Positions 16,995 through 33,458 of a DNA stretch of 64,000 nucleotides are shown here, piece after piece. The translations under genes and the position numbers were made by a program. Under the pieces are notes generated by a model, which ran no database searches, was not told the DNA's origin, and saw nothing but the letters and a program-made list of their open reading frames with translations. Origin of the DNA: Psychroserpens damuponensis (GTDB lineage: Bacteria > Bacteroidota > Bacteroidia > Flavobacteriales > Flavobacteriaceae); NCBI RefSeq assembly GCF_000826655.1, contig NZ_JXJO01000023.1, positions 62,001-126,000 on the forward strand. Reading direction: 5' to 3'. The first letter of the stretch is position 1. The number at the start of each line of letters is the position of its first letter.

Positions 16995-19900
16995 ATGAGA
17001 AAAATCTACGGATTACTAATAACAATTTTGTTTTGTGCATTTGGTAATGCTCAAACAGTGGTCACTATTGATAGAGAAAATGGACCTGGTCCAACCGCTA
17101 CTGGTAATGACGCTTCTATTACCTCAATAGGCTTATCTAGAGGTGCTGGAGTCACACAAAGAAACGGAACTGCATTTTCAACAAGAAATTGGAATAGCTC
17201 GAGCCAAGCGACAGCAGAAACCAATAATGATTATTTAGAATGGTCAACATCTACAAATGCTAATTATGATATTCAAATTACTGAATTAGATATAAAACTA
17301 AGACGTAATACAGATGGACCTTCGGATTATCAATTATTTTATAGTTTAGATAATTTTGCAACTCCAGGAATCGCATTACACGCACCATCAACCTTAGCCG
17401 TTACTACTGACATAATCGTTAACGTTAATGGATTTACTATAAACTCTGGACCTTCTGGAACTATAACGTTTAGACTATACGCATGGAATGCAGCTACAAA
17501 TGCTGGATGGCTTCGTGTGAGAGGTCAAACGTCATGGAGTGCTTTTGGCATTGCTGTTCCGGGTGCTAGACTTATAGGAACCGTCACACCTATTTCGGTT
17601 AATAGTTCTAATTCAAATATTGTAACTACACCTTTTGATCCTACAGATAATATCGATTACTCTAGTTATTCTGCTACTTCTGGGTTAACCACGAGTAATG
17701 CTATAAAAATAGGTGAATTTACAATTCAAGATGGTGGAGACTCTTTATCAGATGCCGACTTACTTACTACAATTTTAACAGACTTAGAGTTAGACGTGAC
17801 TAACAGTTCTACAATTGCTGCAATGGCAATTTTTGATGGAACAAGTAACATTTCAGAAGTAACCACCGTTACTGAAACCACAGTATTCTCAGGAATTTCT
17901 GGACTATCTGCTCCTGATAATGGATCTAAAACGTTTGATTTATACGCTACATTTAATTCGTTAGTTGTAGATAACACGCAATTTCAAACCTCTATAAATG
18001 TTGCAATTGCAGATGGAATATTAGGATCAGTTTTTGATGCTATTGACGCTGGAGGTGCTCAAACATCGATAGCTGGTGATGATAACAGAATTGAAGTTAC
18101 CGCTACACAATATGTTTTTGTACAAGATCCTTCAGATACATTTCAGTTTGAAGTTATGAAACCATATCCTACTGTAATGGCTGCTGATTTAAATGGCAAT
18201 CAAGATGTAGATTATAATATAACTATCAATGTTCTCGCTGCTGGTTCACTTGATCCAGCATTTATAACATATACTATGACTAATGGTTTTGCGACTTTAG
18301 ACACTATTGTTTTTACTGAAAAAGAAACTGCAGCTACTTTATTAGTTTATGGTGGCGCTTTTGCACCTACCACAAGTAACACTTTTACAGTTGAAGGCCC
18401 TTTACTTACAATCGCATCTCAAGATTTTGATGGTTCAACTCCAGAATGGACATACACTTCAAACACTGCAACATTTGATAATGGTTGGGGAACTGACGGT
18501 TATTATGATGTGATTGATTTAGCAAATGCTACACCATTAAATTACAATTCATTTTCAAATAATATTTTTGGTGAGAATGATTTAAACGATGAAGGAAATG
18601 GCACAACAGGTTATGCCACATTAACATTTGCTACTTTAGATATTAGCTCTTATGAAAACATTAAACTTACATTTGATTGGCAAGTCGTTGGTTATAACGG
18701 GAATAATGACGACGTGAGATATAGACTTTTTTATGATGGTGTTGCACAACCTTATGTAGTTTTATTTGACGGTAATGGTGCTCCTACAGATGATCAAGGC
18801 ACAGTTTGGCTATCTATTCCTGACACTGTTAACACCGTTGGTTTTCAATTAGATGTTAGAAACAATGGCTTAATTGGATATTCTGGATTTGACAATTTTA
18901 GCTTAGTGAGCACTTTTGATGGGTTACTATATGTAGATAATGGCTGGACTCCCAACCCACCATCTGACACCACAGGTTCAGACAATGTATATATCTATGA
19001 TGGAACTTATATCATTGGATCAAATATCGAAGCGAATAACTTCTATGTTAGCCCAATAGCAACTACTTCAATTTCAGCTGGACAATCTTTAACTGCGAAC
19101 GCTAGTATTATAAACAACGGAACGATAGAAATGAATTCTGTTTCTACAAGTTATTCGTCATTAATATCAGATAATGTAGAAGGAGAAGTTATTTATAATA
19201 GACATGTAAACACATTTGCCGATTCGGGCTCTACTACTGGTCAAAATGATTTTGTATCAGCTCCAGTAACAAATAGCAATCAAACATTCTCTGTAATTAG
19301 AACAGCTAATACAGATATTCCTTCAGGACCAATTGGAGGCGTATTCTCGTATCTATTTGGCCCTTTCGACAATAATGCCAACACGTTTATTAATTACACT
19401 ACTGCAGATGATGCCACAATCATTATTCCAGGTTTAGGATATAGAACAGCTTCTGACACTCCAACAGGGTCTACATTTGAATTTGTAGGAGATGTAGAAA
19501 CCTCTAGCATTACTACGCCAATTACTGTAGGCACAAATAGCGATTTCAATTTAATTGGTAATCCGTTCTCTTCGTACATTAAATTGTCGAATTTTTTAAC
19601 AGACAACATTACACAATTTAGCCCAGCTAACTTTGGAGTTTATGGTTATGATGGCTCTGCAACTGACGGTTATACCATCTGGAATCTAGCTTATTCGGAT
19701 GCGAACCCAACTGCGCTTATCACTCCAGGTCAAGGTTTCCTAGTTGCTGCTAAAGCAGGCGGAGGAAGCATTGCCTTTGATATAGACTCTCGTTCTATAG
19801 GAACAACAGAAGACTTTATCTTAGGCAGAGTAGACAACACAAATCTTGCGCATGTACAACTAGAAATGGCAAATGATATCTATACGTATAAAACAGACTT

Positions 19901-20531
19901 TTATTTTAATGATAATGCAACTCTAGGTATGGATGCTGGATATGATTCAGGAATCTATCATGATGACGCTCCAGAATTTGCAATCTACTCTCATTTAGTT
20001 ACCAACAATAATGGATTAAAGTTAGGAGCCCAGTCTGTAAATTACGATGCGATAAACGATGTTATTATACCTTTAGGAGTTAATGCTAACCAAGGAGAAC
20101 AACTAACAATTAGCATATTAGAACACAACATCCCTGAAGGCACTGAAGTGTTTTTAGAAGACACAGTGAACAACACATTTACCTTATTAAATACTTCAGA
20201 TTTTGTATTTACTCCAAATGTTAACCTATCAGGTACAGGACGATTTTTCTTAAGATTTTCTTCGGAAGCATTATCAACTTCAGAAAATAACTTTGAAACC
20301 ATTCAAATTTACACAACTAAAGCACCTAAAACCTTGTTTATAAAAGGAGCGCTTCAAAGTGATACAACTCTTGAAATTTATGATATACAAGGTCGAATGA
20401 TTTTGAACACTTCCTTAGATAGTCGTAATAATTCTAATCAAATAGATCTTTCAGAATACACAACTGGTATTTATGTTGTAAAATTAAATAACGGAAGTTC
20501 TCAAAAATCTCAAAAAGTAATTATCGACTAA
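16995..20531 (+). CDS. Large T9SS type A cargo protein (1178 aa)
   Basis: A secreted multidomain protein. Residues 1-19 are a Sec signal peptide (MRKIYGLLITILFCAFGNAQ, cleavage before or at the Q). Residues 20-190 look like a beta-sandwich. Residues about 207-380 form a module with IKIGEFTIQDGG that recurs in the next gene. Residues 460-640 include a further sandwich-like region (YENIKLTFDWQVVGYNG). From about residue 730 to the end the protein is homologous to the two following proteins. The last 75 residues are a T9SS type A sorting domain (LEIYDIQGRMILNT ... YTTGIYVVKLNNG). It should cross the outer membrane by T9SS and be anchored or released. No catalytic motif was recognised; an adhesin or structural role is a guess. 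Confidence 0.85.
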   Translation: MRKIYGLLITILFCAFGNAQTVVTIDRENGPGPTATGNDASITSIGLSRGAGVTQRNGTAFSTRNWNSSSQATAETNNDYLEWSTSTNANYDIQITELDIKLRRNTDGPSDYQLFYSLDNFATPGIALHAPSTLAVTTDIIVNVNGFTINSGPSGTITFRLYAWNAATNAGWLRVRGQTSWSAFGIAVPGARLIGTVTPISVNSSNSNIVTTPFDPTDNIDYSSYSATSGLTTSNAIKIGEFTIQDGGDSLSDADLLTTILTDLELDVTNSSTIAAMAIFDGTSNISEVTTVTETTVFSGISGLSAPDNGSKTFDLYATFNSLVVDNTQFQTSINVAIADGILGSVFDAIDAGGAQTSIAGDDNRIEVTATQYVFVQDPSDTFQFEVMKPYPTVMAADLNGNQDVDYNITINVLAAGSLDPAFITYTMTNGFATLDTIVFTEKETAATLLVYGGAFAPTTSNTFTVEGPLLTIASQDFDGSTPEWTYTSNTATFDNGWGTDGYYDVIDLANATPLNYNSFSNNIFGENDLNDEGNGTTGYATLTFATLDISSYENIKLTFDWQVVGYNGNNDDVRYRLFYDGVAQPYVVLFDGNGAPTDDQGTVWLSIPDTVNTVGFQLDVRNNGLIGYSGFDNFSLVSTFDGLLYVDNGWTPNPPSDTTGSDNVYIYDGTYIIGSNIEANNFYVSPIATTSISAGQSLTANASIINNGTIEMNSVSTSYSSLISDNVEGEVIYNRHVNTFADSGSTTGQNDFVSAPVTNSNQTFSVIRTANTDIPSGPIGGVFSYLFGPFDNNANTFINYTTADDATIIIPGLGYRTASDTPTGSTFEFVGDVETSSITTPITVGTNSDFNLIGNPFSSYIKLSNFLTDNITQFSPANFGVYGYDGSATDGYTIWNLAYSDANPTALITPGQGFLVAAKAGGGSIAFDIDSRSIGTTEDFILGRVDNTNLAHVQLEMANDIYTYKTDFYFNDNATLGMDAGYDSGIYHDDAPEFAIYSHLVTNNNGLKLGAQSVNYDAINDVIIPLGVNANQGEQLTISILEHNIPEGTEVFLEDTVNNTFTLLNTSDFVFTPNVNLSGTGRFFLRFSSEALSTSENNFETIQIYTTKAPKTLFIKGALQSDTTLEIYDIQGRMILNTSLDSRNNSNQIDLSEYTTGIYVVKLNNGSSQKSQKVIID

Positions 20532-20739: not shown

Positions 20740-23700
20740 ATGAAACATTTTTACCTATTTTTATTACTTTTATTTATTTCAAGTATTGGTTTTAGCCAAA
20801 CCATTGCGCTTCAAGATTTTGAAGCCTCTGCTCAAACTCCTGTTCTAAATTTCTCAGATTCAGGAGGAACCTATTCCACTGATGATGGACCTTATCCTGT
20901 TGGAGATAATAATTTCGTTTCTGGCAGCAGAGGATGGGAAGCAAATAACACAACATCTACAATTACATTTTCTTCAGTTGATATTAGCGCTTTTAGTAAT
21001 ACACGTTTAGACTTTAGATTAGCTTCATTTGCTGGCTCAAGTGGAAATGGAAATGATGATTCTGATTTTGTTTTAGTAGAAGTGAGTTTGGATGGTGGAG
21101 CTTCTTTTTCAGATGAACTTGAAATCAATGGAAACAATAATGCAAAATGGTCTTTTGATACAGGAACAGGAGTTGCTACCACTCCTTATGATGGCGATAA
21201 TAATCAGACTAATTTCACACCATCTGCAGGTGGCTATTTAACCTCTGAAGGTTATAGTTATATTTCAATCACGAGTATTCCAACTACCACCCAATTAGTT
21301 ATTAGAATAACATTGCAAAATAACAGTGGTAATGAATATTGGATTATTGACGATGTTGTTATCTCTGGTGTCGCATCATCTGGCCCAGTAAACCCAACAA
21401 CCTTTACAGCGACACCATTATCTTCTTCCCAAATAGATCTTGCTTATGATGATAATGCTGCAGGTGATGATATTATCATTATTTTTGATACAGATAATAC
21501 ATTTACAACTCCAACAGGATCACCTACAGCTGTTGGAACTTCTTTTGCAGGAGGAACAATCCTATACGACAGTAATGGCACAGGAACGTATAACCATACT
21601 GGTCTAACCGAAGGAGCTACCTATTACTACAAAGCCTACTCGTATGATGGTGCAGAGTATTCATCTGGTTTGAGTGCCGATGCGACAACCATAATCAACT
21701 GCCCTAGCATAACAGATTTAACAATTGATAGTTATACAGATACGGAAGCTATAATTAGTTGGACAAATGGTGGCACAGAAAATGCGTGGGAAATTGTCGT
21801 TCAACTAAACGGCTCAGCAGTACCTGCTGATACTCCTGGGTATGGCACTGCAACATCTAGTAACCCACATACCGTATCATCATTATCAGACAATACACTT
21901 TATGAAGTTTATGTTAGAGCTAATTGTACCACTGAGAGTAACGGATTTAGCACTTGGGAAGGACCTGTTACCTTCACAACAGAAATCACACCTCCTCAAG
22001 GTAGCACATGTGAAGACCCAATAAATTTAGGAACATTACCATATGTTGCTTTAGGAGAAACTACAAATGGATTTGGAGATAATTATTCTGGATCACCTGG
22101 AGATTCTGGCTGTGGTAGCACTAGTTCATATTTAAATGGAGATGATATAGTATATGCATATACTGCTGATGAAGATGGAACTATTAATGTAAATTTAACC
22201 AACATTACAGATAACTACACTGGTGTCTTCATTTACGACTCTTGTAACGATATAGGATTTAGTTGTCAAGCAGGTAATGTAAATTCATCTAGTACAGCAG
22301 ATTTGAATATCCCATTATTCCCTGTAAATAATGGACAAACTTATTATATTGTTGTATCTACATGGGCAGATCCGCAAACAACAACTTATGATCTTTCTAT
22401 AACTAAAGGGACATCAAACTTAGCTAACATCATTGAATCTGGTTTTGATGAACCAAACAATATCGATTATACGTTATATGATGACGTCACAAGTGGATTA
22501 GATGATACTAACGCAATAAAAATTGGAGAATTCACTATTCAAGATGCCGGAGAAACATCTTCAGACTCCGATGCTTTAAGCACTACCTTAACAGACATTT
22601 CTTTTGATATTGTAGGATTTGCTAATATAGCCGCAATTGCTCTTGTAGATGACTCAACTGCTATGATTAATAATCTTGCTGAAACATCAACTGTAAATGC
22701 GACGACGTCATTTTCAGGTTTAAATATACAAGCTGCAGATGATGGCACAACAACTTTTAGCGTGTATGTTACCTTTGATAATACAAGTGTTACTGATAAC
22801 GATCAAATTCAATTAACAGTGAGTGCTGCTACTGCAAACCCTAGTGGTTCTGTATTTACCTTAGCTGATGCTGGATCAGCAGAAACAACACTTAATGGTG
22901 ACGATAACAAAATTGAAGTCACTGCAACAACTTTAATTATTGACACAAACGTATCAAATGTAGAAGTTAATGCTATTATGTCGCCTTCACTAACTGTTTT
23001 GGCTGTTGATGACGAAGCTAATGTAGATTTTGACTCTGGCAACGTTACTCTAACACCTTCTGTAGCAAATATTTTTGGAATTTCTGCGTCTTACGTAGAA
23101 GCAACAGTATCTGGCACTGCAACATTTAATAATTTAAGTTTTGACACTGTTGGTTCAGGATATACATTGACAGCGAGCTCTGGTAGTTTGACTACTGACA
23201 CAAGTATATCTTTTGATGTGACTCCTGCAGGACCTGGTGGTGGCACTACAGATTTATTTTTCTCTGAATATATTGAAGGGTCTAGTAATAATAAATGTCT
23301 AGAAATTTATAATGGCACAGGAGCTGATGTTGATTTATCTTTATATGACATTTACATTTATATAAATGGTAACCCCATACATTCACCATCAAGTGATATA
23401 ATACTATCAGGTACTTTGATTGACGGAGAGGTTTACGTTATTTGTGATGATGGTGCAGATACAGAATTTTTAGCAGAGGCAGATATGACTCCAACATCTA
23501 ACTTTTATAATGGTGACGACGCTGTTGCTCTAGTTAAAAATGGAGTTATGGTTGATCTTATTGGTAATATTGGGTGTGATCCTGGTTCTAGCTGGAATGA
23601 AGGCGGTAATAATACAGCTAATAGTACTTTAGTAAGAAATAGCGATATATGCTCTGGAATTACAATCGATCCTGAAAACTCGCCTTGTGATTTCCCAACT

Positions 23701-26313
23701 TTAGCGAGTGAATGGACAAGTTTTGCTTCAGATACAGTTTCAAATCTTGGATCTCATACAGCAACCTGTGGTATTATACCAACGTGTAACACATTTGCAG
23801 GAAATGGCTTAACTGGTTCTGGAGGTCCTGTGGGAAATGGTAGCTTAGAAGCATGTGCAATCTCTGGTACCGAAATCACATTTACATTCACAAAAGCTGA
23901 AATGATATCTTTAAATGATGTACTCGTTTTTTACATCGATAGTGAAACTGGAGGTATTATGGATACATCAGGTTTAAATGATACTGCTGATGGACAGCGA
24001 ATAGCTATTTCTGGTTATAATGGAACTACACGTTCTACGGTTACTTTTCCTCCTGGTTTTATGCCAGAATATGCTATTGCTTTAGACAATGGAGCAGCTA
24101 ATCTTTTTCAATTAGATGCTAGTTCACATATATTTATTCAAGATGCTAGTTTAGCAATATCTGATGACGATTACACATTTTCAATAGATTTTACTAATAT
24201 CAATACTACTCCAAATTCTGAAAGTTTCAACATTTTAGCTACTTATTTAAGTGATACTGCAGTTCGATCTAATGAATCTATAGGGCGTACAACAGCAACT
24301 GCTGTAAATCCTGGAGCAAGTAATCCGTTAGAATTTGAAACTTATTATCAAGTCAATAGTGGTTTTCAAGGTGGAAAAGCACCATCTCTTGCAGATGGAT
24401 TATGGTCAGAAAGCGCATCATGGTTTAATGGAAATGCACCTTTAGCTGGTGATGAGATTACAATTAACAACGTTATTACGCAAGACACTGATTACATAGC
24501 AGGATTAATTGACATTACTGGAGCAAATTCGTTAACCGTTGATTCTGGAACTGCACTTGCTATAACTGGAGGAGTAACAGGAACAGGTAGTATAAATATA
24601 GACGGTAAACTTGTATTAACTGAAGGTGGATACACAAACCTCACTCCAACTTACGGTAATGGCTCTACCTTAGAATACAGAAATATTAGTGGAATATACA
24701 ATCGTTTCAATGAATGGAATAATGGCACCTCTCTAGGTGTAGGTGTTCCAGATAATATAATTATCGAAAACGCCACTTTAGACATTACAAATTCTGAGCA
24801 AGCCAGTTTTGTTGATTTTACGGTAGGTTCAAATTTAGATTTATTAACTAATGGTAGCTTAACTGTTGATGCTACTGAAAGCTTAACTATTGGTGGAGAT
24901 TTAAACATTTCCGCAGGAAACTTAGATTTAAATTCAATTTCTAATGATTATTCTAGTCTAATAATTGACGGAACTGCAACTGGAGATGTGATTTATAAAC
25001 GACACATCAACACGTTTGCAAATAATCCTATTACTGGAAATAATGATCTTGTATCAGCTCCTGTTACTAATGCCAATCAAACTTTTAGCGAGTTTAGAAA
25101 CATAAATACCAACATCCCATCTGGAACTATAGGTGGTGTGCCTTCATATTTATTTGGTTCTTTAGATAATGACACCAACGTATATATTAACTATACTACT
25201 GCAAATGATAATAATATACTATCTCCAGGTACTGGATATAGAACAGCAACAAACACTGCTACAACGACTCTAACGTTCGTTGGAGACGTACAAACTAGTG
25301 ATGTATCTGTAGCCATTAATATTGGTGCAGCGAGTGAATGGAATTTAGTGGGTAATCCGTACCCATCATATATTAGTAGTGTAGAATTTTTAAATGAGAA
25401 TGCTGCCTTATTAGACGAAGATGCCGTAGGAATTTATGGTTATGATGGTGACGCTGGAAGTGGTTGGAGAATTTTGAATTTCAACACCACCAATAGCACA
25501 GATTACAATATGGCTCCAGGACAGGGATTTTTAGTTGCTGCTGAAAGTGCAGGTACTGTAAACTTTACAACAGCAATGCAAACGATTATTGGTGATGATG
25601 ATTTTATCCCTTTAAGAACAGAAAATAATAAGCATTTAAGACTTCAAATAGAAGGAGGCGATGCAAACTATGAAACTGATTTCTACTTCAATGATAATTC
25701 TACTTTAGGTCTAGATCCTGGTTACGATGCTTCTATTTATGACGCAAGCTTACCAAGTTTCTATTTATATTCTCATTTGGTTGAAAACAACACAGGACGA
25801 TCTATGGCAATTCAATCCTTAGGATCTACAGATTTAAGTGCTGTTAGTATTCCGTTAGGTGTACATGCAAATCAAGGTGAACAAATTACGTTTAGCATTG
25901 TCGAGTCTACTTTACCTGCAACCGTAGAAGTTTACTTAGAAGACACTATAGCCAATACGTCTACTTTGTTAAATAGTACAGATTATATTTTAACACCAGA
26001 TGTTAATTTAACTGGTACTGGCCGCTTTTTCTTAAGATATACTGAAGACGCATTATCAACAACAGAACAAAACTTTAATAATTTAAATATCTATAACTCA
26101 ACAGTAACGAAAGAGGTTGTCGTTGCTGGTCAACTTTTAGAGAACACTACTTGCAACATTTATGATATTCAAGGTAGAATAGTATCTACAACCGAATTAA
26201 ACGATACGACCTTAGAGAACAGAATTGATGTCTCTACAGTAAGTACTGGTATTTATATTGTGAAGTTAAAAAATAATAATCTAGAAAAAACTCAAAAATT
26301 AGTTATCAAATAA
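20740..26313 (+). CDS. Very large modular T9SS type A cargo protein (1857 aa)
   Basis: Signal peptide MKHFYLFLLLLFISSIGFSQ. Reading along: a sandwich domain at 20-210 (YWIIDDVVISG); two fibronectin III-like domains at about 212-320 and 322-418; a domain at 424-556 resembling bacterial pre-peptidase C-terminal folds (GDDIVYAYTADEDGTINVNL); a 557-730 module shared with the preceding gene (IKIGEFTIQDAG); a lamin-tail-like domain at about 838-1010 (FFSEYIEGSSNNKCLEIYNG); further sandwich domains to 1400; then the C-terminal region of about 440 residues common to all three neighbours, ending in a T9SS type A sorting domain (CNIYDIQGRIVSTTEL). It is exported to the cell surface or medium. No protease or glycosidase motif was found, so binding or adhesion is likelier than catalysis. 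Confidence 0.85.
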   Translation: MKHFYLFLLLLFISSIGFSQTIALQDFEASAQTPVLNFSDSGGTYSTDDGPYPVGDNNFVSGSRGWEANNTTSTITFSSVDISAFSNTRLDFRLASFAGSSGNGNDDSDFVLVEVSLDGGASFSDELEINGNNNAKWSFDTGTGVATTPYDGDNNQTNFTPSAGGYLTSEGYSYISITSIPTTTQLVIRITLQNNSGNEYWIIDDVVISGVASSGPVNPTTFTATPLSSSQIDLAYDDNAAGDDIIIIFDTDNTFTTPTGSPTAVGTSFAGGTILYDSNGTGTYNHTGLTEGATYYYKAYSYDGAEYSSGLSADATTIINCPSITDLTIDSYTDTEAIISWTNGGTENAWEIVVQLNGSAVPADTPGYGTATSSNPHTVSSLSDNTLYEVYVRANCTTESNGFSTWEGPVTFTTEITPPQGSTCEDPINLGTLPYVALGETTNGFGDNYSGSPGDSGCGSTSSYLNGDDIVYAYTADEDGTINVNLTNITDNYTGVFIYDSCNDIGFSCQAGNVNSSSTADLNIPLFPVNNGQTYYIVVSTWADPQTTTYDLSITKGTSNLANIIESGFDEPNNIDYTLYDDVTSGLDDTNAIKIGEFTIQDAGETSSDSDALSTTLTDISFDIVGFANIAAIALVDDSTAMINNLAETSTVNATTSFSGLNIQAADDGTTTFSVYVTFDNTSVTDNDQIQLTVSAATANPSGSVFTLADAGSAETTLNGDDNKIEVTATTLIIDTNVSNVEVNAIMSPSLTVLAVDDEANVDFDSGNVTLTPSVANIFGISASYVEATVSGTATFNNLSFDTVGSGYTLTASSGSLTTDTSISFDVTPAGPGGGTTDLFFSEYIEGSSNNKCLEIYNGTGADVDLSLYDIYIYINGNPIHSPSSDIILSGTLIDGEVYVICDDGADTEFLAEADMTPTSNFYNGDDAVALVKNGVMVDLIGNIGCDPGSSWNEGGNNTANSTLVRNSDICSGITIDPENSPCDFPTLASEWTSFASDTVSNLGSHTATCGIIPTCNTFAGNGLTGSGGPVGNGSLEACAISGTEITFTFTKAEMISLNDVLVFYIDSETGGIMDTSGLNDTADGQRIAISGYNGTTRSTVTFPPGFMPEYAIALDNGAANLFQLDASSHIFIQDASLAISDDDYTFSIDFTNINTTPNSESFNILATYLSDTAVRSNESIGRTTATAVNPGASNPLEFETYYQVNSGFQGGKAPSLADGLWSESASWFNGNAPLAGDEITINNVITQDTDYIAGLIDITGANSLTVDSGTALAITGGVTGTGSINIDGKLVLTEGGYTNLTPTYGNGSTLEYRNISGIYNRFNEWNNGTSLGVGVPDNIIIENATLDITNSEQASFVDFTVGSNLDLLTNGSLTVDATESLTIGGDLNISAGNLDLNSISNDYSSLIIDGTATGDVIYKRHINTFANNPITGNNDLVSAPVTNANQTFSEFRNINTNIPSGTIGGVPSYLFGSLDNDTNVYINYTTANDNNILSPGTGYRTATNTATTTLTFVGDVQTSDVSVAINIGAASEWNLVGNPYPSYISSVEFLNENAALLDEDAVGIYGYDGDAGSGWRILNFNTTNSTDYNMAPGQGFLVAAESAGTVNFTTAMQTIIGDDDFIPLRTENNKHLRLQIEGGDANYETDFYFNDNSTLGLDPGYDASIYDASLPSFYLYSHLVENNTGRSMAIQSLGSTDLSAVSIPLGVHANQGEQITFSIVESTLPATVEVYLEDTIANTSTLLNSTDYILTPDVNLTGTGRFFLRYTEDALSTTEQNFNNLNIYNSTVTKEVVVAGQLLENTTCNIYDIQGRIVSTTELNDTTLENRIDVSTVSTGIYIVKLKNNNLEKTQKLVIK

Positions 26314-26526: not shown

Positions 26527-28800
26527 ATGATGAAAAAATACTTTGATTCAAGTTTTATTATTACATTATTAGTAACACTTACAACAAGCCTATCCTTTAG
26601 TCAATCTAACCATACAGTAACATTTTCTGGTACTTCTAGTGATTTTAATGCTACTGAAAAAATTTGGGGAGGCGATGATGTAGATTACTATGTAACTTTT
26701 GATGACACCTATATGTATTTTGGAGCATTTAGAGTGAATGGATCAACTTTTGGAGCTTATGATCATTTCACAGTGTATTTAGATACAGATCCTCAACCGA
26801 GTTTAACAGCAGGTAATGGAAGTACGACAGGTTTAAATTGGGACAACCAAACACCAACCATGCCTTATAATGCAGATCACAGATTTGTTATTAGAAGTAA
26901 CGCTACAGGCGAGTCTTTTCATCATAAATACACAGGAGCTTCATGGGATGATCAAACCGGTGGTTCAACATCAAACTTTACTCAGTTCACTACAAGTACT
27001 GCTCTCGAAATAAGAATTCCAATTGCTAACATTGATAATGCAAAAGGTATTTACTTCTCTATGTTTATGTCTTATGGAGGAGGTGGTGGAGGATTTTTTG
27101 GCGCAAACGACGTCAATTATCCAATTTCATTTTCTGGAAGTACATTCTCAGGTTACTTTGGAGGTATTGGCTTAACATCAACTGGATGCAACCCAATAGA
27201 CTATAAAAACCAACCTATACAAGATGAACTTGTAAATGCTAACCCTTTAGCAAACACTAAATATGCGTACATAGACATTAATAATAATGATTATACTGTG
27301 ACTGGAGACATTGCTTTAGTTTCAGGAGGAAGTGGTAGTGTTGCCGCAGGAAAATCCTTAACAATTGATGGCAATTTTGATATTGATGGTTATTTTGAAT
27401 TACAATCAATATCTAACTCATACTCAAGTATAATACCAACGACATCTACTGGTGATATAACTTATAAGAGACATGTGAATTATGCTGCAGGTTCAGGAAC
27501 GTCTACAACCGCAAATGATTTAATTAGCACACCTGTAGCCGGTATGACCTTTGGAGATTTAAGAATGGATCCTAATACTAATATTCTCTCAGGTACGGTA
27601 AATGGTAATGGTCCTTTTTACCTTTTTGGACCATTTGATAATAGTAGTGTTAATAATTATGTGTTGTTTGAAGATGCCGTGGATGATGGCATAACTCTAG
27701 AAACAGGCGTTGGCTACCGAACTGGCTCAACAGATGGAGGCACTTATACTTTTACTGGAACTATAGAAACCGGTAATATACCAAAGACCATAACTACGCC
27801 TGCGGGAGGAAGTGAATGGAATTTAATAGGAAACCCATACCCTTCATATATTAATTTATCAGAATTTTTAAGTATTAATAGTAGTAAATTTGACACAAAT
27901 GCAGTTGGAGTTTATGGTTACGATGGTACAGCTACTGATGGTTGGGCGATTTGGAATACGTTATATTCACTGATAAACCCAAACGCTGTAATTACACCTG
28001 GCCAGGGATTTTTTGTGGCTGCTGCTTCAGCAAGTGAAGTTGTAAATTTCAATACAAATATGAGAGCTATCGGTTCTAGTGATGATTTCATACCAATGCG
28101 CACTACTTCAGCTATAACTAATGTACAATTAAATATGTCGTCTTCTACAGATAGTTTTAATACCGACATCTACTTTACAGAGTTCTCTACATTAGGATTA
28201 GACCCTGGTTTTGACTCTAGTTTATTTGGCGGTACTATTCCTACATTTTCAGTATACTCGAATCTAGTTGAGCAAAACAATGGAGTACCATTTGGTATTC
28301 AAGCAGTAGGCGAAACAGATTACAATGATGTCACAATACCTCTAGGTGTAAGTGCTAATCAAGGTGAACAAATAACATTTAACATTACCACATCTACAGT
28401 ACCAAATACAGTAGAAGTGTATTTAGATGACACTGTAGAAAACACATCTACTCTTTTATCAACAACTGATTATATTATCACACCTGCTTCAAATTTATCT
28501 GGTGTAGGTCGTTTCTATTTAAGATTTACTGATAATTCATTATCTACTGTTGAAAATAGCTTTGACGATTTAGATATTTTTATGGCTTCAAGATCAAAAG
28601 AAATTATCGTTAACGGTCAAATATCAGAACACTCTATATGCGAACTATATGATATACAAGGAAGATTAATTTTAACATATAACCTTGACACTACTAATTC
28701 ACAAAACCGAATTAATGTTTCTAACGTAAATACTGGTATATATGTTATTAAATTATCAAGTAATGATTCAAAGTTATCTAAAAAGATTATTATAGATTAA
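26527..28800 (+). CDS. T9SS type A cargo protein (757 aa)
   Basis: Starts with two adjacent ATG codons (26527 or 26530) and a signal peptide ending near TSLSFSQ. Residues about 27-215 form a distinct beta domain with a glycine run (GGGGGGFFG) and an aromatic-rich face (IWGGDDVDYYVTFDDTYMYFG), possibly a carbohydrate-binding or DOMON-like fold. From about residue 309 the sequence parallels the C-terminal region of both upstream proteins (TYKRHVNYAAG; EWNLIGNPYPSYINLSEFL). The end is a T9SS type A sorting domain (CELYDIQGRLILTYNL, GIYVIKLSSN). No clear promoter was seen in the 150 bases upstream and no terminator follows, so read-through into the peptide-kinase genes is possible. Confidence 0.83.
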   Translation: MMKKYFDSSFIITLLVTLTTSLSFSQSNHTVTFSGTSSDFNATEKIWGGDDVDYYVTFDDTYMYFGAFRVNGSTFGAYDHFTVYLDTDPQPSLTAGNGSTTGLNWDNQTPTMPYNADHRFVIRSNATGESFHHKYTGASWDDQTGGSTSNFTQFTTSTALEIRIPIANIDNAKGIYFSMFMSYGGGGGGFFGANDVNYPISFSGSTFSGYFGGIGLTSTGCNPIDYKNQPIQDELVNANPLANTKYAYIDINNNDYTVTGDIALVSGGSGSVAAGKSLTIDGNFDIDGYFELQSISNSYSSIIPTTSTGDITYKRHVNYAAGSGTSTTANDLISTPVAGMTFGDLRMDPNTNILSGTVNGNGPFYLFGPFDNSSVNNYVLFEDAVDDGITLETGVGYRTGSTDGGTYTFTGTIETGNIPKTITTPAGGSEWNLIGNPYPSYINLSEFLSINSSKFDTNAVGVYGYDGTATDGWAIWNTLYSLINPNAVITPGQGFFVAAASASEVVNFNTNMRAIGSSDDFIPMRTTSAITNVQLNMSSSTDSFNTDIYFTEFSTLGLDPGFDSSLFGGTIPTFSVYSNLVEQNNGVPFGIQAVGETDYNDVTIPLGVSANQGEQITFNITTSTVPNTVEVYLDDTVENTSTLLSTTDYIITPASNLSGVGRFYLRFTDNSLSTVENSFDDLDIFMASRSKEIIVNGQISEHSICELYDIQGRLILTYNLDTTNSQNRINVSNVNTGIYVIKLSSNDSKLSKKIIID

Positions 28801-28850: not shown

Positions 28851-28858
28851 TACTTTTG
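28851..28858 (+). promoter_or_regulatory. -7 promoter element upstream of the 53-aa peptide gene
   Basis: TACTTTTG is an exact TAnnTTTG match 20 bases before the ATG at 28878. At the -33 position only TTT (28828-28830, 20-bp spacing) is present instead of TTG. It would give a very short leader and a separate transcript for the peptide-kinase-nucleotidyltransferase genes. Confidence 0.45.
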
Positions 28859-28877
28859 TCCACTATATAAGATTACA

Positions 28878-29039
28878 ATGAAAAGAACTAGTCCTCAAGA
28901 TCAAATTACACGTAAGGAAGCTATCAGAAAGATGGGCAAGTACGCAGCTCTTACAGCGATGGGTACTTTTCTTATTCTTAATCCAAAGAAAGCTCATGCT
29001 ACTTCGCCTCCAGATCCAGGTGGAAATCCATTTGATTAA
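28878..29039 (+). CDS. 53-aa leader-like / exported peptide
   Basis: A short frame from ATG 28878 to TAA 29039 encodes 53 residues. The first 20 are charged (MKRTSPQDQITRKEAIRKMG). A hydrophobic stretch follows (YAALTAMGTFLIL), then NPKKAHA and a 12-residue tail TSPPDPGGNPFD. AHA fits an AxA signal-peptidase site, and RK before KMG resembles a weak twin-arginine signal, so the mature product may be only about 12 residues. The gene has a -7 element just upstream and ends 14 bases before the kinase gene. It may be a modified-peptide precursor or a small exported factor. Not matched to any known family by eye; coding status is inferred from start position, promoter and composition. Confidence 0.65.
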   Translation: MKRTSPQDQITRKEAIRKMGKYAALTAMGTFLILNPKKAHATSPPDPGGNPFD

Positions 29040-29053
29040 TACTATATTTAATT

Positions 29054-30190
29054 TTGAAAGCGGATTTAGCTCCTAAGCACATTCGTAAAATTGACGACTC
29101 CATAATCCTTTGGTTTAAAGAGTCTAATAGATACGTCGTAGTACCTCAACATACTTGGACGTTAATTAGCCTATATATAGAATCTAAAAATAAAGATGCT
29201 TACCTCAATCACCTCGAGCACGAACTCCAATTAGGAGATTTAGACGCATCTACTGCTATATTTACAGAAATCTCTAAGTTTTTAATTGAAGTTAACGTAG
29301 GTTCTAATGATGATAACGCAACCGTTACATCTGCTGTATCACCAAAATTAGACATCGAAAGATTTTATCAATTTGACACCAAGTGTGTCAAAATAAATTT
29401 TGAATCCACACGTATTGAAAGTATAATACATCCTCAAATTGAGCATCATTTATCAAATAGAAATGTAACTGTTGATACTGAATTTGACATATTCAAAATT
29501 AAGGATTTTTTGTATATTCATAAAAACAAGAAACACATTGGGCGATATCCAACTCATGCATTTCATCTTCTTCAAGGACGATTTGCGTTAGAATTAACTA
29601 ACACTATTCATGATAAACATGCCGACGATTGGGTTGCTACATTTCATGCCTCTACTGTAGCTAACACAAAAGAAGCCATTATGATTATTGGAGATTCTGG
29701 CAATGGAAAAAGCACATTATCTGCACTATTAATGACTAACGGTTTTGATTTATTGGCAGACGACTTTACGCCTTTACATCTTGACACGAATCTATACCGA
29801 TATCCGAGTGCAATATCAATAAAAAAAGGTGCTTTCAGTATTTTAGATGCTGAAATATCTAACTTCAACAACTTGAAGATTCATACCAATGGTCCTAAAA
29901 AAGTGAATCTTAAATATGTCCCTCAAAATCTCAGTTTTACTAATAAAAATTCCCATTTTCCGTGTACTAAGATTGTCTATGTTAAGTTTGATAAGACTAA
30001 ATCGTCTGAATTGCATCACATTTCCGTAGAAAAAATAGTAGAGACCTTAATTCCAGATTCTTGGATTTCTCCAAATGAACATCATGCTCACAAATTCATG
30101 AATTGGCTTAATGATATTACCTGTTATGAATTAACATATAGTGATAATGATTTTGCTATTAGTAAATTTAAAGCGTTATTTAATCAATAG
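29054..30190 (+). CDS. PqqD-like domain fused to HPr-kinase-like P-loop kinase
   Basis: A 378-residue protein starting at a TTG codon; no in-frame ATG lies before the kinase domain. Residues about 5-82 have the strand-strand-helix pattern of PqqD-like RiPP recognition elements (ILWFKESNRYVVVPQHTWTL ... IFTEISKFLIEV). The C-terminal part is HPr-kinase-like: FHAS at 197-200, Walker A GDSGNGKS at 213-220 and LLADD at 233-237, the counterparts of the HprK P-loop and catalytic Asp block. HPr itself is not an obvious substrate, because the HprK N-terminal domain is absent. Relatives accompany lasso-peptide and exosortase-linked loci, where some phosphorylate a peptide. Here the 53-aa peptide is the likely partner; that is inference. 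Confidence 0.78.
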   Translation: MKADLAPKHIRKIDDSIILWFKESNRYVVVPQHTWTLISLYIESKNKDAYLNHLEHELQLGDLDASTAIFTEISKFLIEVNVGSNDDNATVTSAVSPKLDIERFYQFDTKCVKINFESTRIESIIHPQIEHHLSNRNVTVDTEFDIFKIKDFLYIHKNKKHIGRYPTHAFHLLQGRFALELTNTIHDKHADDWVATFHASTVANTKEAIMIIGDSGNGKSTLSALLMTNGFDLLADDFTPLHLDTNLYRYPSAISIKKGAFSILDAEISNFNNLKIHTNGPKKVNLKYVPQNLSFTNKNSHFPCTKIVYVKFDKTKSSELHHISVEKIVETLIPDSWISPNEHHAHKFMNWLNDITCYELTYSDNDFAISKFKALFNQ

Positions 30191-30243
30191 CGTATTTTAA
30201 ATTTGCATATAATAGTACTATAACCAAAATTTCTTACTGTAAT

Positions 30244-31293
30244 TTGTTATCAACCAAACGCACATACCAAGACACACTAAAACTTATTGCAGAAATATTG
30301 TGCGTAAACAAACCAACACAAGAACTTGAAAAATCATTAACAAGCTCTGAGATTGATTGGGAGTATTTTGTACAATTATCAAGTGAGCATTTAGTGTTAA
30401 CGACGGCATACTGCAGACTAGAACAGAAAGAATTATTAAATTATTTACCAAAAGAATTAGTAGATTATTTAGAAGAGATTACCAACATTAATCGCAATAG
30501 AAATCTAGCATTATTAAATGAAATTAAGGCAATTGCAATCTGCTTTAATGAACACAATATACCGTATGTATTTTTAAAAGGTGCCGCTCTATTAATTGGA
30601 GGTTACTGTAAAGATTTGGGTGAACGTATGATATCTGATTTGGATATTTTAATTCCAAATGAATATATTAATCACGCTTATAAACTCATACAATCTTTAG
30701 GATATGATCAAGAAAAAAACTTCAATTATAGCGTAAAAAATTTCAGGCATTTAGCACGACAATTTAGCAATAGTAAATTGGCTGCTATAGAATTACATCA
30801 CTCGGTGGTAAATACAAATTGTGCACCTAAAATCAATTATAGGTTGATATTTGATACGTCAGAGAAAGTTGATAATATTTACATACCAAATACCTATTAC
30901 CTCAATTTGATCACTATTATTGGTGTTCAAACAAACTCCAATGGGTATCGCTACAAACAGTGGTTTTTACGAAGTTTGAGTGATAGTTTAACACTTAAAT
31001 TAAGTCATGAAACTCAACTAATTGAAGATTTTAAGCATGATAAAATCGTAAAAGACTATTTGTCTAAATTATACACAATATTTAATTGTTGTGACATTAA
31101 ACCAACTAATGTAACACTAACAAAACTAAACAGACGTTATCTATTTAGAATAAACCATATAGGTTATCATAAATTTTCACATAAAGTTAAATTCATTTAT
31201 TACAATATCACAGAACGCATTACATTATTTTTCAATAATAAAAGTTATAGAAACCATTGTGTCAACTCGCTTAGATCAAAACTAAATCGTTAG
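30244..31293 (+). CDS. NTP_transf_5-type nucleotidyltransferase family protein
   Basis: A 349-residue protein with YVFLKGAALLIGGYCKDLGERMISDLDILI-type core around residues 109-138 (LKGAALL, then DLDIL with the metal-binding aspartates), the hallmark of the NTP_transf_5 family. Family members are found beside HprK-like kinases in peptide-tailoring and exosortase-associated loci; their reaction is largely unknown. The chosen start is a TTG at 30244, as no upstream ATG exists in the open frame; att/ata codons upstream make the true start uncertain. It lies 53 bp after the kinase gene. A small C-terminal half rich in aromatic and basic residues has no recognised motif. Confidence 0.75.
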   Translation: MLSTKRTYQDTLKLIAEILCVNKPTQELEKSLTSSEIDWEYFVQLSSEHLVLTTAYCRLEQKELLNYLPKELVDYLEEITNINRNRNLALLNEIKAIAICFNEHNIPYVFLKGAALLIGGYCKDLGERMISDLDILIPNEYINHAYKLIQSLGYDQEKNFNYSVKNFRHLARQFSNSKLAAIELHHSVVNTNCAPKINYRLIFDTSEKVDNIYIPNTYYLNLITIIGVQTNSNGYRYKQWFLRSLSDSLTLKLSHETQLIEDFKHDKIVKDYLSKLYTIFNCCDIKPTNVTLTKLNRRYLFRINHIGYHKFSHKVKFIYYNITERITLFFNNKSYRNHCVNSLRSKLNR

Positions 31294-31568: not shown

Positions 31569-32156
31569 ATGAAAAAAACAATTTTAGTATTAACACTCTT
31601 AGCACTTTTTTGCTATGATAGTCAAGCCCAATCTCATCTTACAAAAAGAGAATTAAGAGATACAGATGCATGGATCTTATCTGCAGGTATTAATGCAACA
31701 GGAAGTCTTGGTTCTAGAAATCCATTTAAAAATGTAGATGATTTTCAATTTAGAAATCCTTTTGTGGTTGGTATTCAACATAAATGGTCAAGATTATTTT
31801 CAATTGAGCAAGATTTCTCAATAAATGGTTTTACTGAAAACACTATAATTGATGGAAATCCAGTTCCTGAAGATTACACATACTTTTCAACTAACACATA
31901 TTTAAAATATTATTTTTCTGACCATTTATGGGATGAAAGATGGATCGACATATATGCTGGTGGTGGTTTAGGAGTTTTTCGCATTGATGAATATAACACC
32001 TCTGCCAATGTTGTGTTAGGTGGTATTTTATGGATAAACCCTAGAATAGGTGTGAGCTTTCAAGGTGTTGGTAAATTTGCTTTTAACCACGACGATAACT
32101 TATTTGCTAATAATCATATTCAATATATGCTTCAAGGTGTTTTTAGACTTGACTAA
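31569..32156 (+). CDS. Small outer-membrane beta-barrel-like protein
   Basis: A 195-residue protein with a signal peptide (MKKTILVLTLLALFCYDSQAQ). The mature part alternates polar and aromatic residues in strand-like runs (WSRLFSIEQDFSINGF, TYFSTNTYLKYYFSD, WIDIYAGGGLGVFRI) and ends in an aromatic-rich strand (IQYMLQGVFRLD), as expected for an eight-stranded outer-membrane barrel. No OmpA peptidoglycan-binding tail is present. It has its own promoter element and a strong terminator, so it is a single-gene unit. Function is unknown. Confidence 0.7.
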   Translation: MKKTILVLTLLALFCYDSQAQSHLTKRELRDTDAWILSAGINATGSLGSRNPFKNVDDFQFRNPFVVGIQHKWSRLFSIEQDFSINGFTENTIIDGNPVPEDYTYFSTNTYLKYYFSDHLWDERWIDIYAGGGLGVFRIDEYNTSANVVLGGILWINPRIGVSFQGVGKFAFNHDDNLFANNHIQYMLQGVFRLD

Positions 32157-33294: not shown

Positions 33295-33344
33295 CTTTGA
33301 AAATAAAAAACCTAAGCTTATAAATTCAAGCAAGTTTGATTTAA
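33295..33344. repeat. Direct repeat, copy 1 (partial terminator copy)
   Basis: Fifty bases identical to 33409-33458 except for one T/C difference in the CAAG(T/C)TTG segment. On the minus strand this copy holds only the loop and 3' arm plus T-tract of the tRNA-Arg terminator, with no nearby matching 5' arm. Confidence 0.85.
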
Positions 33345-33408
33345 TATGAATACTAGACAAACTAACGGTTTGGATTAGCTCCTTATGTCGCTTTTCCTCA
33401 AAGCTCAG

Positions 33409-33458
33409 CTTTGAAAATAAAAAACCTAAGCTTATAAATTCAAGCAAGCTTGATTTAA
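33409..33458. repeat. Direct repeat, copy 2 (within the tRNA terminator)
   Basis: Second copy of the 50-bp repeat. It makes up most of the tRNA-Arg terminator hairpin and contains a perfect inner TCAAGC-AA-GCTTGA hairpin. In copy 1 the same inner stem keeps pairing through a G-T wobble. Confidence 0.85.

Follow-up and report, generated by a model that had tools for sequence, protein, structure and literature searches.

A three-gene operon of Psychroserpens that likely modifies a small peptide recurs beside secreted surface proteins

Linear polyphosphorylated peptides (LPP), described by Popov et al. in 2026 and restricted to Bacillota according to these authors, come from loci that comprise a precursor with a conserved N-terminus and a variable tail, a recognition element (RRE) for ribosomally synthesized and post-translationally modified peptides (RiPPs), an HprK-like kinase and an NTP transferase, but no cyclase (PMC13381572). 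The same paper reports that LppK phosphorylates Ser3 of the LPP core AQSNWK, that S3A abolishes this and S3T and S3Y are not phosphorylated, and that deletion of lppN caused no change in its host; the biological roles of LPP and paeninodin are called unknown there. Paeninodin-type and pseudomycoidin lasso peptides are presented in a review with an HprK-like kinase carrying a His-Lys-Asp-Asp motif, a nucleotidyltransferase and a PqqD-like B1 protein, PsmN being reported to add hexoses (PMC9266682). We analyzed 64,000 nucleotides of the Psychroserpens damuponensis genome (contig NZ_JXJO01000023.1, positions 62,001 to 126,000; hereafter the window), which contain three genes for a precursor-like peptide, an RRE-HprK fusion kinase and an NTP_transf_5 nucleotidyltransferase. 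This operon likely modifies the small peptide. In relatives it is again found next to large secreted surface proteins, which points to a phosphate-based modification of the peptide with a link to the cell surface.

The window holds the LPP gene set, that is, an HprK-like kinase, an NTP transferase, an RRE and a precursor; no macrolactam cyclase was found among the 17 gene families common to at least 3 of 32 loci (identified by a Pfam scan of one representative each), cyclases not having been searched genome-wide. As in the published LPP clusters, the tail has a serine near its beginning and polysaccharide genes are often nearby. The LPP RRE is a discrete protein, whereas that of the window is fused to the kinase, and pairing of the peptide with surface proteins of the type IX secretion system (T9SS) is found here, unlike in LPP as described. 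The LPP cluster also holds a SipW-like peptidase and an MsbA-like exporter, neither of which is among the 17 shared families here (not searched genome-wide), and its leader motif differs from ours; the locus was therefore not filed as LPP. We nevertheless favor, as the somewhat more probable account, an LPP-like peptide-modification pathway whose product acts with T9SS-exported surface proteins bearing a shared module, MOD. What would be new relative to LPP is the link of a similar enzyme set to surface proteins.

The three genes lie on the plus strand with gaps of 14 and 53 bp and form an operon. This bears out the arrangement proposed in an earlier note made from the letters of this DNA, as does the -7 promoter element that it placed in front. 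The element, TAnnTTTG, stands 23-30 bp ahead of the peptide in 17/17 genus loci, the window counted, against 1.12 expected from base shuffles. It precedes the kinase in none of the 17 loci and the nucleotidyltransferase in eight (window copy at 30198-30205), so the peptide gene seems to begin its own transcription unit. No clear -33 element was seen in the window on inspection by eye. The promoter and pN comparisons used 17 of 23 loci, leaving out a duplicate (L029), three loci of other lengths (L035, L041, L042) and two of other genera (L044, L045).

Sequence conservation argues that the small peptide is a real gene and rules out a chance small open reading frame (ORF), while no Pfam or NCBIfam family matched it at E ≤ 1. 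Within the genus, identity to the window copy is 74-92% for the peptide, 44-61% for the kinase and 33-51% for the nucleotidyltransferase (the G007 peptide of L029, identical to that of G004, was omitted from the peptide alignment). Over the 136 pairs of the 17 genus loci, the kinase had a pN of 0.313 and the nucleotidyltransferase one of 0.392, against 0.078 for the peptide, where it fell to 0.025 over codons 42-53. The peptide is the most constrained gene of the trio, its tail above all. This near invariance within the genus makes a secreted signal or antimicrobial unconnected to surface architecture a very improbable role for the peptide, as does the absence of an exporter among the shared neighborhood families, although some genomes carry several peptides and long variable tails occur in Gelidibacter and some others.

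The leader (residues 10-41) is signal-peptide-like and its last residues are AHA. Among 77 distinct Bacteroidota leader-tail pairs, the position seven residues past the leader proline is occupied by Ser in 75 and by Tyr in one, and is missing from one whose frame ends early. These pairs were obtained from 83 frames by merging duplicates and excluding frames without the leader pattern, and they are not independent, about half coming from the genus or its close kin; one frame with an unparsed leader was dropped, and it has Ser at the same place. The sequence after this serine differs strongly from genus to genus, ranging between PPTPGWGS and tails of about 50 residues rich in Gly and Asn, and AQS is present in many of the Bacteroidota tails. 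A leader-guided kinase would need just such a lone serine, held in constant register to a conserved leader.

The kinase translation contains the HprK-type P-loop GDSGNGKS and the LLADD block that had been read from the letters. A His-Lys-Asp-Asp motif is described for lasso kinases in the review (PMC9266682), and by our own matching the four window residues listed in Table 1 would correspond to it. The kinase part is predicted to have the HprK/P fold with the His-Lys-Asp-Asp set. Sequence profiles respond weakly, with 21.8 bits against Hpr_kinase_C, below its 33.3-bit cut-off, and a search of the PDB by sequence returned HprK/P chains (best E 5.7e-5) together with other P-loop proteins, matching the P-loop region alone. 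The fold search with the whole model left the N-terminus uncovered, so this part was predicted separately. Residues 1-85 gave an RRE fold, a three-stranded winged helix of about 80 residues matching solved RREs, and the top three structural alignments were lasso-peptide B1 RREs solved with their leaders. The PqqD-like recognition domain that the earlier note had suspected in the first 80 residues is in this way upheld by structure prediction, and the kinase is predicted to combine an HprK/PEPCK-like fold with a fused N-terminal RRE of the PqqD/lasso-B1 fold, its catalytic residues being intact. In G085, the kinase (L114 8221-9364) is split over two frames of 302 and 92 codons, possibly by decay or sequencing error.

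The identity of the third gene was also correctly anticipated, its product matching PF14907 (NTP_transf_5) with 110.4 bits against a cut-off of 31.2. Residues K112, G113, D132, D134 and E183 are invariant in 23/23 sequences, and a PDB sequence search gave a single match (E 0.68).

From the kinase, with its RRE resembling elements that bind leaders, we infer that it acts on the peptide. It could be argued instead that the peptide is a mere small exported protein, its signal conserved for export, and that the kinase substrate lies elsewhere, for example a polysaccharide precursor or a T9SS protein. The signal-peptide-like leader with its A-x-A end, the presence of TatC and the polysaccharide-type genes near six loci agree with this. 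Signal peptides, however, rarely hold a fixed sequence, and here the tail and Ser43 are conserved as well as the leader, unlike in typical signal peptides; together with the leader-bound structures matched by the kinase N-terminus and the co-occurrence of peptide and kinase, this makes such a division of roles improbable.

The kinase was found in 20/22 other genomes of the genus (all but G011 and G022), 2/11 other genomes of the family and 0/23 other genomes of the order, and the peptide precedes the kinase on its strand in all 22 other loci first examined, one of which (L045) has the order peptide, nucleotidyltransferase, kinase. Of 299 family genomes, 32 match the peptide profile, and the kinase profile is strong in 29 and weak in four more; both occur in 28 genomes, the peptide alone in four and the kinase alone in one (Fisher p 6e-34). 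The threshold of E<1e-50 used for kinase and MOD in this count was chosen after the score gaps were seen. Of 44 named loci, mainly from Psychroserpens, we counted the 38 with a strong kinase (L148-L185) and not the six weaker ones (L186-L191), many of these being genomes of the 299-genome set. A peptide of at least 70 bits precedes the kinase in 36/38, the other two being a locus that starts at a contig end (L182) and one with a 12-bit candidate (L181), and a nucleotidyltransferase frame adjoins in 37/38. Conservation of the small gene beside the kinase in relatives, which the earlier note had named as a test of its proposal, is seen across genera. Gelidibacter, Mangrovimonas, Arcticiflavibacter, Subsaximicrobium, Aureivirga and metagenome-assembled genomes labelled Prolixibacteraceae are among the named loci. 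In a sample of 395 genomes of the phylum, the peptide was found in five, all of the window's family, its own genome included. Weak matches to the peptide profile in three f52/g353 genomes were set aside, being frames of 304-305 codons; the leader of the one inspected (L238) begins SRREFLDKA.

The tie to T9SS proteins just upstream, like the likeness to Bacillota LPP, is absent from the earlier note. Three upstream window proteins have in common MOD, a module of about 420 residues ahead of the C-terminal region, and the two complete ones (757 and 1857 aa) carry a T9SS type A sorting domain at the C-terminus. The five MOD proteins scanned vary in their N-terminal parts: one has LTD and fn3, one YDG repeats, one FG-GAP and peptidase M43, and two match nothing. 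In 34/38 named kinase loci the peptide gene is preceded by a MOD gene, and in each of these the closest MOD stop codon is 2 to 406 nt away from a peptide start, with start codons as chosen by the script. Strong MOD occurs in 34/299 family genomes, including 29/29 kinase genomes and 30/32 peptide genomes; as at most six candidates were scored per genome, MOD counts are lower bounds. Congeners that differ in kinase also differ in MOD (G299 vs G073, G305 vs G083). The pairing also holds away from the kinase. Two genomes of another genus have six dispersed peptides each; of these 12 peptides, 11 start no more than 116 nt from a MOD stop, and the remaining one comes after another peptide. The stretches fetched around the 12 peptides of G425 and G638 contained no kinase, which was not searched for in these genomes at large. 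MOD-peptide pairs with no kinase nearby are further found in L117, L128, L132 and L134.

A number of observations weigh against an LPP-like pathway coupled to MOD proteins. For the kinase, the PEPCK fold stands above HprK in the structural ranking, because PEPCK, of the same superfamily, aligns over more residues. With the RRE alone, Foldseek gave an E-value of 0.047, and PqqD sequence profiles, of which the earlier note had proposed PF05402 as a check, gave a mixed answer: PF05402 matches 0/34 kinases at E<0.1, PqqD models do not match the window kinase at E<1, and the Bacteroidota kinases L179 and L181 lack a PqqD-profile match, while the fused proteobacterial relative L187 matches lasso_PqqD_Strm (2.4e-6) and PQQ_PqqD (3e-4), and L288 (4.9e-4) and L186 (0.017) match TIGR04353, all below curated cut-offs. 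Three of the six fused-size proteobacterial relatives scanned (L287, L295, L296) show no PqqD match at E<0.05. For the peptide, the LPP leader motif YxxPxVLxHQxIxFETxxS, as given in the cluster description of that paper (PMC13381572), is absent from our alignments, where the leader is RKEAxKKMGKYAALTA-like, and the peptide of L134 has Tyr at the serine position, a residue that LPP does not accept according to the same source. The co-occurrence also has exceptions. G180, G318, G326 and G338 (completeness 82-92%) have a peptide match with no kinase, and G092 (82% complete, with its kinase at the start of a contig) has a kinase with no peptide; the G338 match contains two internal stops and a frame scan gave no intact peptide, so this may not be a real peptide-only case.

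The remaining points concern MOD and could mean that the trio works as proposed while the adjacent T9SS proteins are bystanders, kept there by shared ancestry or the clustering of surface genes. With its own promoter element, the peptide does not require co-transcription with the MOD gene. Some MOD genes stand alone: the other three found in this genome have no adjacent peptide, and strong MOD occurs with no peptide in G092, G110, G165 and G335, of which G165 is 99% complete and lacks the kinase as well. Conversely, no MOD was found beside the peptide in L116, L126, L127, L131, L133, L136, L169 and L178 (L126, L127, L136 and L178 are near contig ends), and the MOD of L120 lies at a distance of 2 kb. 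The neighborhood is also largely syntenic, with ftsZ inside the fetched stretch in 17/22 loci, and proteobacterial kinase loci show no MOD match in the fetched stretches. Mere synteny sits poorly with the dispersed MOD-peptide pairs, with those that have no kinase nearby, and with the presence of strong MOD in every kinase genome and its tracking of the kinase between congeners, and we regard the bystander explanation as rather unlikely.

In an LPP-like pathway acting with MOD proteins, the 53-residue product would be a precursor, held at its conserved N-terminal leader by the fused RRE, as the predicted fold of the RRE suggests. The HprK-like domain would phosphorylate Ser43, at its fixed distance from the leader, and the NTP_transf_5 enzyme might add a nucleotide or sugar to the Ser43 phosphate. 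The leader, also signal-peptide-like with an A-x-A end, would route the peptide over the inner membrane, and an ordinary signal peptidase could cut after A-x-A, freeing a tail of about a dozen residues. Export may be by Sec. Classical twin-arginine (Tat) export is unsupported in Bacteroidota: the genome encodes TatC, but RR occurs in 0 of the 77 distinct leaders (RK in 73, RN in 4). The best 12-residue stretch is less hydrophobic in the leaders (mean 2.07) than in the starts of 25 MOD proteins (2.57), which is a weak hint. The modified peptide may finally act with MOD-bearing T9SS proteins, for example as a bound or attached decoration, a step to which the gene coupling points. If this is true, LPP-type chemistry would not be confined to Bacillota but would reach Bacteroidota and, in outline, Proteobacteria; the locus would also exemplify the fusion of an RRE with its own kinase and a leader with a possible second role in export. 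Gene pairing and co-occurrence tie the enzyme set to a defined class of exported surface proteins, which makes its function open to genetic test.

Other known systems fit less well. A lasso cluster was ruled out: PF13471, the transglutaminase-like lasso protease B2, has no match at E ≤ 0.001 in the genome (99.5% complete), and neither a lasso protease nor a lasso cyclase, signal peptidase or ABC exporter is among the shared neighborhood families, cyclase and transporter not having been searched genome-wide. The serine is moreover at the C-terminus in the paeninodin-type peptides covered by the review (PMC9266682), whereas here it is near the tail start. This agrees with the earlier note, which saw no such protease, cyclase or transporter at the locus and set the arrangement apart from described lasso clusters. 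HPr-rel-A (TIGR04352/TIGR04353) shares, by its model names, an HprK-related kinase and a PqqD family chaperone, but PqqD is fused to the kinase here, and canonical membership was ruled out by score (62.6 bits to HprK_rel_A, TIGR04352, vs a curated cut-off of 200). The ScmC and ScmD models of the SynChlorMet cassette weakly match some proteobacterial relatives of the kinase. That cassette includes radical SAM enzymes; none is in the families shared by at least three kinase neighborhoods, save a housekeeping-like gene in three peptide-only loci. Anti-phage defence was set aside, PADLOC giving no match for the three proteins at E ≤ 0.01. In the open-access literature, to which our search was confined (subscription papers and preprints lying outside its scope), the LPP paper alone pairs an HprK-related kinase with an RRE, and we found no report combining T9SS with an HPr kinase, HprK with a nucleotidyltransferase and PqqD, or a Bacteroidota RiPP precursor with T9SS. 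An HPr kinase together with a lasso peptide and a nucleotidyltransferase led to lasso-peptide papers, and RRE together with twin-arginine only to an unrelated metagenome study.

Related kinases occur in Proteobacteria. Among 293 Gammaproteobacteria, canonical HPr-rel-A members (>300 bits) were found in 28 genomes and divergent ones (65-104 bits) in 11, some fused like the window kinase. Whether or not NTP_transf_5 is present, divergent proteobacterial HprK-type kinases are often preceded by small ORFs whose leader is twin-arginine-like, RR being present in most candidates. Such ORFs were seen in L186, L187, L287, L288, L291, L292, L294, L295 and L296 and were not convincing in L188, L189, L248-L250, L284, L285, L286, L289, L290 and L293. 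The peptide profile backs those of L186, L187, L287, L288 and L296, the remaining ones resting on a loose pattern; in the whole L186 genome it gives only two matches, both to ORFs immediately before the kinase. These leader ORFs beside proteobacterial kinases could be a wider precursor family, and the core of leader peptide and kinase may predate the T9SS link. A bolder proposal, which we put forward only tentatively and think unlikely in full, is that a short peptide, phosphate-linked and possibly sugar-bearing, is produced in the cytoplasm on a leader that is both signal peptide and RiPP leader and is exported as the dedicated partner or attached group of T9SS proteins whose MOD would serve for docking, in a new Bacteroidota system of surface-protein maturation that descends from a core of peptide, kinase and nucleotidyltransferase also found in Proteobacteria. 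At individual proteobacterial kinase loci (L186 5135-6457, L295 5917-6372, L292, L294) there are between one and three small ORFs with an RR leader, and some of these have Gly-rich tails.

Table 1 Features of the operon and of the upstream surface-protein genes, in window coordinates.
Feature	Coordinates	Strand	Remarks
-7 promoter element of Bacteroidetes type, TACTTTTG (TAnnTTTG)	28851..28858	+	27 bp ahead of peptide ATG
Precursor-like peptide (peptide ORF), 53 aa	28878..29039	+	53 codons, ATG start; variable start, conserved leader residues 10-41, Pro/Gly-rich tail TSPPDPGGNPFD
Ser43, proposed phospho-acceptor (putative)	29004..29006	+	conserved Ser in fixed register to leader
RRE-HprK fusion kinase	29054..30190	+	378 codons, 378 aa, TTG start
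Predicted N-terminal RRE (PqqD-like) domain	29054..29293	+	kinase residues 1-80
Kinase His198, first of the His-Lys-Asp-Asp set	29645..29647	+	invariant in 34/34 rows
Kinase P-loop GDSGNGKS (residues 213-220) with Lys219	29690..29713	+	K219 invariant in 34/34
Kinase Asp236-Asp237	29759..29764	+	each invariant in 34/34
NTP_transf_5 nucleotidyltransferase	30244..31293	+	349 codons, 349 aa, TTG start
T9SS-sorted surface protein, 757 aa	26527..28800	+	directly upstream of peptide; PF18962, TIGR04183
MOD of 757-aa protein	27322-28581	+	shared module
Por_Secre_tail of 757-aa protein	28624-28797	+	PF18962, TIGR04183
Second T9SS protein, 1857 aa, with LTD domain	20740..26313	+	PF18962; MOD at 24850-26094
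MOD of third T9SS-type protein	19134..20312	+	C-terminal part of an open frame of ~1179 codons

Besides kinase, nucleotidyltransferase and MOD protein, the families shared between neighborhoods include an OmpA-like protein, YqeY, FtsZ, FtsA, FtsQ, a Mur ligase, an M90 peptidase, and polysaccharide and UDP-sugar dehydrogenase genes; those at peptide-only loci are GyrB, a malate/lactate dehydrogenase, a pseudouridine synthase, the radical SAM gene and a glyoxalase. Polysaccharide biosynthesis genes lie near the kinase locus in L110, L115, L118, L119, L123 and L139, five of which also have a UDP-sugar dehydrogenase. On the 3' side of the trio, the window encodes a 195-aa exported-looking protein (31569-32156) with no Pfam or NCBIfam match, placed likewise in 21 of the 22 loci first examined. 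Its relatives occur in 12/32 loci across genera, one of them, in L117, being a 447-aa OmpA/OMP beta-barrel protein encoded close to a peptide, and the window protein is possibly an outer-membrane barrel linked to the system. Further on, between the M90 peptidase and YqeY-like genes, a 50-nt direct repeat is present in two copies, 98% identical and 114 nt apart (33295-33458).

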